From the NCBI GenBank assembly GCA_026627345.1, contig JAPNUP010000073.1:1-36066 (forward strand): 36,066 bases of DNA. Reading direction: 5' to 3'. Shown here in pieces: positions 32,829 through 34,113 of this stretch (position 1 is its first letter; each line of letters begins with the position of its first letter). The position numbers were made by a program, and so were the translations under genes. The notes beneath the pieces were generated by a model. It was not told the DNA's origin. It did not search any database and worked only from the letters and a program-made list of their open reading frames with translations. The DNA comes from Bacillota bacterium (lineage in GTDB: Bacteria; Bacillota; Bacilli; Alicyclobacillales; SLC66).

Positions 32829-33269
32829 GTGCACAACATCAAGACAGATATGGATGAGATGGAAGCGCTTATTCCCGAGGTGATGCGATCGATCCGCACG
32901 CTCATGCAGGATATACCAGAGATGAAGTTGACAACGCCAGTTCAGTTTTTTTTGCTACATAAGCTTGAGCGCGAAGGCCCATGTAACGCTTCGACTATTG
33001 CCCAGTTCATGGGCATTACGTCAGGGTCAGTCACCAGTATTACCGAGCGACTGGTCAAGCACGGGCTGATTTCACGCGTGCAGGATGCCCTAGACCGCCG
33101 GATTGTGATTTTCAGTTTGACGGAGTCGGGCGAAGAGCTGCTCCATGCCATTCGCGAGCAGCGCAAGCAGAAACTACAAAGTGTATTCGAGCGATTGGGT
33201 GAAGAGAAGACACACTTGCTGCTCGATCTCTATAAGGATATGCAAGTCATTCTCGAGGATATGAAGTAA
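32829..33269 (+). CDS. MarR family transcriptional regulator
   Basis: A 146-residue winged-helix repressor. The DNA-binding part is TPVQFFLLHKLEREGPCNASTIAQFMGITSGSVTSITERLVKHGLISR, with the wing in VQDALDRRIVIFSLTESGEELL, the MarR signature DxRxxxxxLTxxG. Start GTG 32829 is about ten bases after AGGGG. It lies between the divergent UbiB operon and, downstream, the FAD protein and MFS pump genes; MarR proteins usually control their neighbours, often efflux pumps. A weak hairpin with a T run follows the gene. No Cys is near the dimer interface, so it should respond to ligands and not to thiol oxidation. Confidence 0.92.
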   Translation: MHNIKTDMDEMEALIPEVMRSIRTLMQDIPEMKLTTPVQFFLLHKLEREGPCNASTIAQFMGITSGSVTSITERLVKHGLISRVQDALDRRIVIFSLTESGEELLHAIREQRKQKLQSVFERLGEEKTHLLLDLYKDMQVILEDMK

Positions 33270-33327: not shown

Positions 33328-33353
33328 TGCTCCTACCAGGAGCATCAATTTTT
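33328..33353 (+). terminator. Weak terminator after the MarR gene
   Basis: TGCTCC pairs with GGAGCA over a five-base loop, followed by TCAATTTTT. It lies about 60 bases after the stop codon. The six-base stem is short. Confidence 0.45.
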
Positions 33354-33422
33354 GCGAAGGTCACATTCCTTTCCAAAACCGTCGCATGCCTATCCCACCT
33401 TTCATTATCCGTCTTTGATTAT

Positions 33423-33438
33423 ATACCCGCTCGGGTAT
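33423..33438. promoter_or_regulatory. CsoR/CstR-type operator 1 before the FAD protein gene
   Basis: ATACCCGCTCGGGTAT is a palindrome in which all pairs except the central two bases match, and it extends to an 18-base TATACCCG..CGGGTATA. It is of the TACCC...GGGTA form known for CsoR and CstR. It lies 25 bases upstream of the -35 box. Confidence 0.68.
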
Positions 33439-33462
33439 AAAGCAAGTCATGGCGGTTTGCGT

Positions 33463-33492
33463 TTGACTACATACCCCTGTAGGTATTATAAA
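33463..33492 (+). promoter_or_regulatory. Promoter of the FAD protein gene with operator 2 inside
   Basis: TTGACT (33463-33468), an 18-base spacer and TATAAA (33487-33492). The spacer contains a second palindrome, ATACCCCTGTAGGTAT (33471-33486), which fills it almost exactly. A CsoR/CstR-type repressor bound there would block RNA polymerase; loss of binding on persulfide or copper would release transcription. Confidence 0.7.
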
Positions 33493-33522: not shown

Positions 33523-34113
33523 GTGCAATCTCATGAAAACAGACAGGCTGATGTAGTGATCGTTGGTGGCGGGGTGGCGGGTCTTTCTTGCGCGATCTTT
33601 ACGGCAAAGGCTGGACTGCGTACGATCATACTGGATTCACCCGATTCCCAACTTCGCGGCGTGAAGCAAGTGTGGAACTTCCCAGGTTTTGAACAAGGGA
33701 TAGCAGGTGCCGACTGGTTAGCATCGGCGCGTACGCAGGCGGTTTTGCAAGGCGCTGTTGTCCGAGAGGAAAAGGTGGTCGCGCTCGAGCTTCAGGCTCG
33801 TCCTTATACAGCGAAAACTGAAACAGGGAACACCTACGAAGCGCCGTTTCTCGTTCTTGCAGTGAATCTCGGCTCTGAATTACTGGCGACACAGGGTCTC
33901 GAGTTGGCAGTGAACGAATATGTACCGAGTAAGAAGATCCGCTACGTCACTGAGGCACAGTCTAACGGGCAAACGTCCCGTGAGGGTGTATTTGTTGCTG
34001 GTTTGCTAGCGAATCTTCCTAGTCAGTCCGTGATTGCTGCAGGCCAGGGAGCGTTTGTGGGCGTGCAGATCGCCAGCGCCTTTGGACAAAAACCATTCAT
34101 GTGGCATGACTGA
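33523..34113 (+). CDS. Minimal FAD-binding, thioredoxin-reductase-like protein
   Basis: A 196-residue flavoprotein consisting of only the FAD domain of the thioredoxin reductase family. The N terminus has the dinucleotide motif VVIVGGGVAGLSCAIFTAKAG, then WNFPGF, and the C-terminal FAD motif GVFVAGLLANLPSQSVIAAGQGAFVG. The NADPH domain and the CxxC redox site, usually inserted between these, are missing: the protein is about 110-120 residues shorter than thioredoxin reductase, and the only Cys (residue 23, in LSCAIF) lies within the FAD motif. It is therefore not a thioredoxin reductase. The start is GTG 33523 after AAAAGGAG. Its promoter carries CsoR/CstR-like operators, which suggests a role with persulfide or sulfur carriers. 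It ends three bases from the end of the convergent MFS gene. Confidence 0.85.
   Translation: MQSHENRQADVVIVGGGVAGLSCAIFTAKAGLRTIILDSPDSQLRGVKQVWNFPGFEQGIAGADWLASARTQAVLQGAVVREEKVVALELQARPYTAKTETGNTYEAPFLVLAVNLGSELLATQGLELAVNEYVPSKKIRYVTEAQSNGQTSREGVFVAGLLANLPSQSVIAAGQGAFVGVQIASAFGQKPFMWHD

Follow-up and report, generated by a model that had tools for sequence, protein, structure and literature searches.

The window is the whole stretch of DNA that was analysed (36,066 nucleotides). Near its end it carries a flavoprotein gene that is preceded by two putative operators and by a gene of the MarR family. The features of this region are listed below.

32829-33269, + strand: MarR-family gene, the upstream neighbour, which is not conserved beside orthologues of the flavoprotein gene
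33328-33344, + strand: terminator-like hairpin between the MarR gene and the operators, by consensus match only
33415-33420, + strand: hexamer TTGATT, -35-like, which may belong to a distal promoter around operator 1, with TATAAA at 33436-33441 as its presumed partner
33423-33438, + strand: operator 1, ATACCCGCTCGGGTAT, putatively CstR-type, between TTGATT and TATAAA
33463-33468, + strand: proximal -35-like hexamer TTGACT, read from the sequence by consensus match only
33471-33486, + strand: operator 2, ATACCCCTGTAGGTAT, between the -35-like and -10-like hexamers of the proximal promoter
33487-33492, + strand: proximal -10-like hexamer TATAAA, read from the sequence by consensus match only
33523-34113, + strand: flavoprotein gene, 196 aa, GTG start, C-terminal MWHD, FAD-only and thioredoxin-reductase-like

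The two operators are separated by 32 bp. The TTGACT-TATAAA spacer (33469-33486) consists of 18 nt, and operator 2 covers the last 16 of them. These exact positions confirm an earlier note on this DNA, which had described two operators 32 bases apart with the second one inside that spacer. Both window sites match the pseudo-palindrome ATACC(C/T)-N4-(A/G)GGTAT. Operator 1 is self-complementary at 14/16 positions, or at 16/18 when one flanking base per side is included. Operator 2 is self-complementary at only 10/16 positions, and its right arm is AGGTAT, not GGGTAT. The TTGACT/TATAAA pair is absent from the list of the mechanical promoter scan because its TATAAA does not have the final T that the scan requires. 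Operator 1 is flanked by a weaker TTGATT/TATAAA pair with a spacing of 15 and may therefore mark a second operator-promoter. Elsewhere in the window, a one-mismatch site (ATACGCCTAGGGGTAT, 2245-2260) precedes the start of a minus-strand ORF (1376-2212) by ~33 bp.

The product of the flavoprotein gene had been described as thioredoxin-reductase-like. This description holds for the FAD-binding half and fails for the remainder of a thioredoxin reductase. The matches to Pfam PF07992 and TIGR01292, which cover the FAD domain, are confined to residues 10-114/126; the TIGR01292 match spans model positions 2-108 of 300 and scores 84 bits against a cut-off of 343. Both the NADPH domain and the CxxC redox motif are missing from the 196 aa, as seen from the profile match and from alignment A1, and no cysteine is invariant among the orthologues in that alignment. 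The AlphaFold model of the flavoprotein (pLDDT 88) has its best PDB match in TTHA0370 of Thermus (PDB 2CVJ/2YWL; the match is to 2CVJ). TTHA0370 is likewise a TrxR-related protein with a FAD-only TrxR fold; it consists of 180 aa and aligns with the predicted model at a TM-score of 0.81/0.88 and 32% identity. No functional study of TTHA0370 was found in the literature searched, where its single mention is in a paper on halogenases. The flavoprotein probably acts in the redox handling of persulfides or thiols, and does so together with a partner, since it lacks both an NADPH domain and a conserved cysteine.

Five perfect ATACCYN4RGGTAT sites were identified in the whole 2.76-Mb genome, and two of the five lie before the flavoprotein gene. 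The search for further copies that the earlier note had proposed thus yielded three. Two are located at a cstR/rhodanese/persulfide-dioxygenase locus (C132:9363 and C132:10340) and the third upstream of a thioredoxin gene (C115:6221). A one-mismatch site is also present at the promoter of the C132 cstR/rhodanese locus (C132:10191). All four of these sites lie within or against -35/-10-like pairs. The site C115:6221 (L015:6221-6236) is situated between a Fur-family gene and the thioredoxin gene, ~370 bp before the thioredoxin start, and the intervening stretch has coding potential that is not assigned to any gene.

A third-order Markov model that was trained on ~80 kb of the genome predicts ~0.28 perfect sites for the full 2.76 Mb and 3e-5 for a stretch of 300 bp. 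In the order, with 59 genomes covered, ATACCYN4RGGTAT occurs 283 times vs 27 for the reversed control, and 126 vs 24 times when five site-rich genomes are left out. It is highly unlikely that the sites are palindromes of chance or repeat origin without a regulatory role. A chance origin was rejected from the five perfect sites against the ~0.28 expected. These five are the only ones in the genome, and each lies at a promoter that serves a sulfur/redox gene or the flavoprotein gene; sites also recur at varied promoter positions in the orthologues of other genera. A repeat origin draws its support from genus g12, where the palindrome occurs in perfect form 92 and 27 times in two genomes (G018 and G020) and where the pattern lies inside a ~320-nt repeat in at least one place. 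At that place (L068:1281-2220, G018) the repeats are near-identical and three stand in tandem. The g12 palindromes are possibly a dispersed palindromic element. A c-di-AMP riboswitch (RF00379) is present at L068:327-447, on this contig of a relative.

The earlier note was right that the window does not contain the regulator. Three DUF156 proteins are encoded in the genome, of which one is a CsoR (C87) and two are CstR-type (C115 and C132). The C87 protein has the sensor set C-H-C and its gene precedes a copA-type ATPase gene. The C115 and C132 proteins have the sets C-N-C and C-Q-C, where the histidine of CsoR is replaced; both match PF02583 (E 3e-24 and 1e-23) with two cysteines and without the CsoR-type histidine. 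The CstR of S. aureus also has N at the position of the CsoR histidine; the two reference sequences served as alignment guides only. The Q in the sensor set of the C132 regulator (G000:C132:9447-9758, L014) is the only case among the 33 proteins compared. The closest solved structures to the C115 and C132 proteins are 7MQ1-7MQ3, which carry the file title csoR and which we take to be pneumococcal CstR. NCBIfam returned no matching CstR model, and its sole DUF156 matches were to RicR, far below the cut-off. The neighbours of the C132 regulator gene are genes for rhodaneses, a thioredoxin-like protein and a TauE permease, together with a divergent metallo-beta-lactamase-rhodanese (CstB-like) gene. 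The C115 regulator gene has CstB-like, SQR-like, DUF1641-like and TauE genes in its vicinity, together with an NreB-like kinase/NreC-like regulator pair, where the SQR, DUF1641 and NreBC names come from a reading of the translations.

CsoR and CstR have a common DUF156 fold and pseudo-palindromic operators with G/C runs, and this genome does carry a CsoR gene next to one for a copA-type ATPase. The C87 CsoR might on these grounds bind the two sites and place the flavoprotein in a copper response. We consider this very improbable, and it was rejected on the distribution of the sites. The csoR-copA promoter of this genome has no site at <=2 mismatches, and its spacer is instead a different G-rich sequence, TAGGGTGGGTGGGTA. 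Among the 11 genomes that hold the flavoprotein, a site (<=1 mismatch, within ~1.5 kb) is present at 6/12 CstR-type loci vs 0/21 CsoR-type loci (Fisher p 8e-4, a value that overstates independence because the genomes share ancestry). Two of the six sites at CstR-type loci belong to the promoter of the flavoprotein gene itself, since the cstR gene is its neighbour there. The other 6/12 CstR-type genes have no site within 1.5 kb, and operons may place it further off. In addition, the flavoprotein clade neighbours sulfur genes, and the CsoR and the CstR-like TTHA1953 of Thermus exhibit little or no cross-binding of sequences (PMC10318464). The association of the site with CstR-type and not CsoR-type loci, the csoR-copA promoter without a site and the linkage to sulfur genes support the earlier suggestion that sulfur is likelier than copper.

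The conservation of the operators was examined among the homologs of the flavoprotein. In a profile search of 348 genomes of the class, members of a close clade score >=202 bits and are set apart from a sister clade, whose members score <=137 bits; several genomes hold flavoproteins of both clades. The order has 11 complete close-clade members, which are the window's own and ten others at 45-60% identity. A site with <=1 mismatch lies within 100 bp of the start in 7/11 orthologues and 0/18 paralogues (p 2e-4), and rhodanese, CstB-like (persulfide-dioxygenase-like) or cstR genes lie within ~1.5 kb at 11/20 close-clade loci and 0/32 sister-clade loci counted across Bacilli (p 3e-6); the genomes are related, and both p-values overstate independence. 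Another 2/11 orthologues have a degenerate site with two mismatches, and a further 2/11 have the site before a rhodanese gene with the flavoprotein gene directly next. All 11/11 complete orthologues have a site in the promoter or before the rhodanese-flavoprotein pair, with two of these sites degenerate. The earlier note had let its reading depend on DUF156 genes in the genome and on operators conserved upstream of orthologues, and both were found.

The position of the site varies by genus: read by eye, it occupies the spacer, overlaps the -10 or follows the -10 closely. This variation suggests a maintained function rather than mere common ancestry. Units of site, rhodanese gene and flavoprotein gene are present at L051, L115 and L119, and the flavoprotein gene stands behind TauE-SQR-DUF1641-CstB operons at L050 and L053. 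One genome (G047), in which the unit of site, rhodanese gene and flavoprotein gene is retained, has a single DUF156 match, and this match is of the CstR type. Outside the order, 3/9 close-clade loci (L091, L094 and L098) have neither the site nor the linkage. At L029/L117 (G045:C17, from a 60%-complete genome), the flavoprotein gene has two in-frame stops, and the operator and the rhodanese gene are still present.

The same loci bear on the MarR-family protein encoded at 32829-33269, whose gene is immediately upstream of the flavoprotein gene on the same strand. Some MarR proteins are sulfane sulfur sensors (PMC11211675), and this one might be the regulator of its neighbour. However, none of the 19 flavoprotein loci checked has a MarR-like match beside it and the operators persist, the identical motif is present at the cstR locus, and the terminator-like hairpin separates the two genes. 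The MarR protein is an exceedingly improbable regulator of the flavoprotein gene; its lack of conservation next to the orthologues was the reason for rejecting it.

We are highly confident that the two sites are operators of a CstR-type repressor, whose release by persulfide or polysulfide would turn on the flavoprotein gene along with the regulon. This reading draws on the sites, the regulator genes, the regulon pattern, the conservation and the gene linkage, all of which were observed directly. The imperfect palindrome of operator 2 and the two degenerate orthologue sites count against it, as do the 6/12 CstR-type genes that have no nearby site, the three close-clade loci outside the order that have neither site nor linkage, and the many palindromes of genus g12. 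No sulfur gene adjoins the flavoprotein gene in the window, and regulation must therefore act in trans; the gene is a probable member of the CstR regulon. The repressor would be supplied by the C132 CstR-type gene and/or its C115 paralogue, elsewhere in the genome. We infer that the reduced repressor would occupy the -35/-10 spacer and so keep RNA polymerase from the promoter. Once per- or polysulfides had cross-linked its two cysteines, it would let go of the DNA, and the flavoprotein would be expressed along with the rest of the regulon. This mechanism is carried over by analogy from family knowledge of S. aureus CstR and B. licheniformis YrkD. As for the presumed enzyme activity, the operator-linked close clade, with its MWHD end and its TrxR fold without an NADPH domain, may be an undescribed component of persulfide detoxification in Bacilli to whose flavin a rhodanese or thioredoxin partner delivers electrons or sulfur, a proposal to which we give somewhat less than an even chance.

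These findings add an isolated flavoprotein gene of acidophilic Bacillota to a CstR-type regulon, as predicted here. The operator and the neighbourhood together assign a likely role in reactive-sulfur handling to one clade of the flavoprotein family, and what makes the result useful is the recurring link between the flavoprotein and sulfur genes. For the order, they also provide the rule that ATACCYN4RGGTAT marks CstR targets and not CsoR targets. Systems of this kind are known; neither the flavoprotein as a target nor its function as an enzyme is described in the literature searched.

The findings are comparable to the CstR regulons of S. aureus (cst), B. licheniformis (YrkD) and E. faecalis (cst-like with CoAPR), in which the repressor is likewise a DUF156 dithiol protein that lacks the histidine of CsoR (PMC5480029, PMC9918477, PMC9405070). 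The genes in common are those for rhodanese, TauE, SQR, persulfide dioxygenase and thioredoxin. The C115 arrangement closely resembles the B. licheniformis cluster yrkD-nreBC-sqr-pdo, NreB-like and NreC-like genes included (PMC9918477). In contrast to the known CstR regulons, the putative target here is an isolated FAD-only TrxR-like gene that is controlled in trans and has two tandem operators; in S. aureus, CstR likely controls a single operon directly (PMC5480029). The CstR-like TTHA1953 of Thermus thermophilus also has targets scattered over the genome and a specificity distinct from that of the CsoR in the same cell (PMC10318464). However, TTHA1953 binds TACNNTACNNNNGTANNGTA, which has another spacing, and controls Sox genes (PMC10318464); its site was rejected as the same operator because the consensus spacing differs. 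The combination of CstR, a rhodanese and a FAD-dependent enzyme was found only in the paper on E. faecalis CoAPR within the literature searched. CoAPR is a CstR-controlled FAD enzyme that is fused to a rhodanese domain (PMC9405070). It uses pyridine nucleotide and two catalytic cysteines, unlike the flavoprotein, which has no NADPH domain and no invariant cysteine. The genes of the flavoprotein clade often stand directly behind a rhodanese gene, which resembles this fusion, and by analogy CoAPR is the nearest functional counterpart of the flavoprotein.
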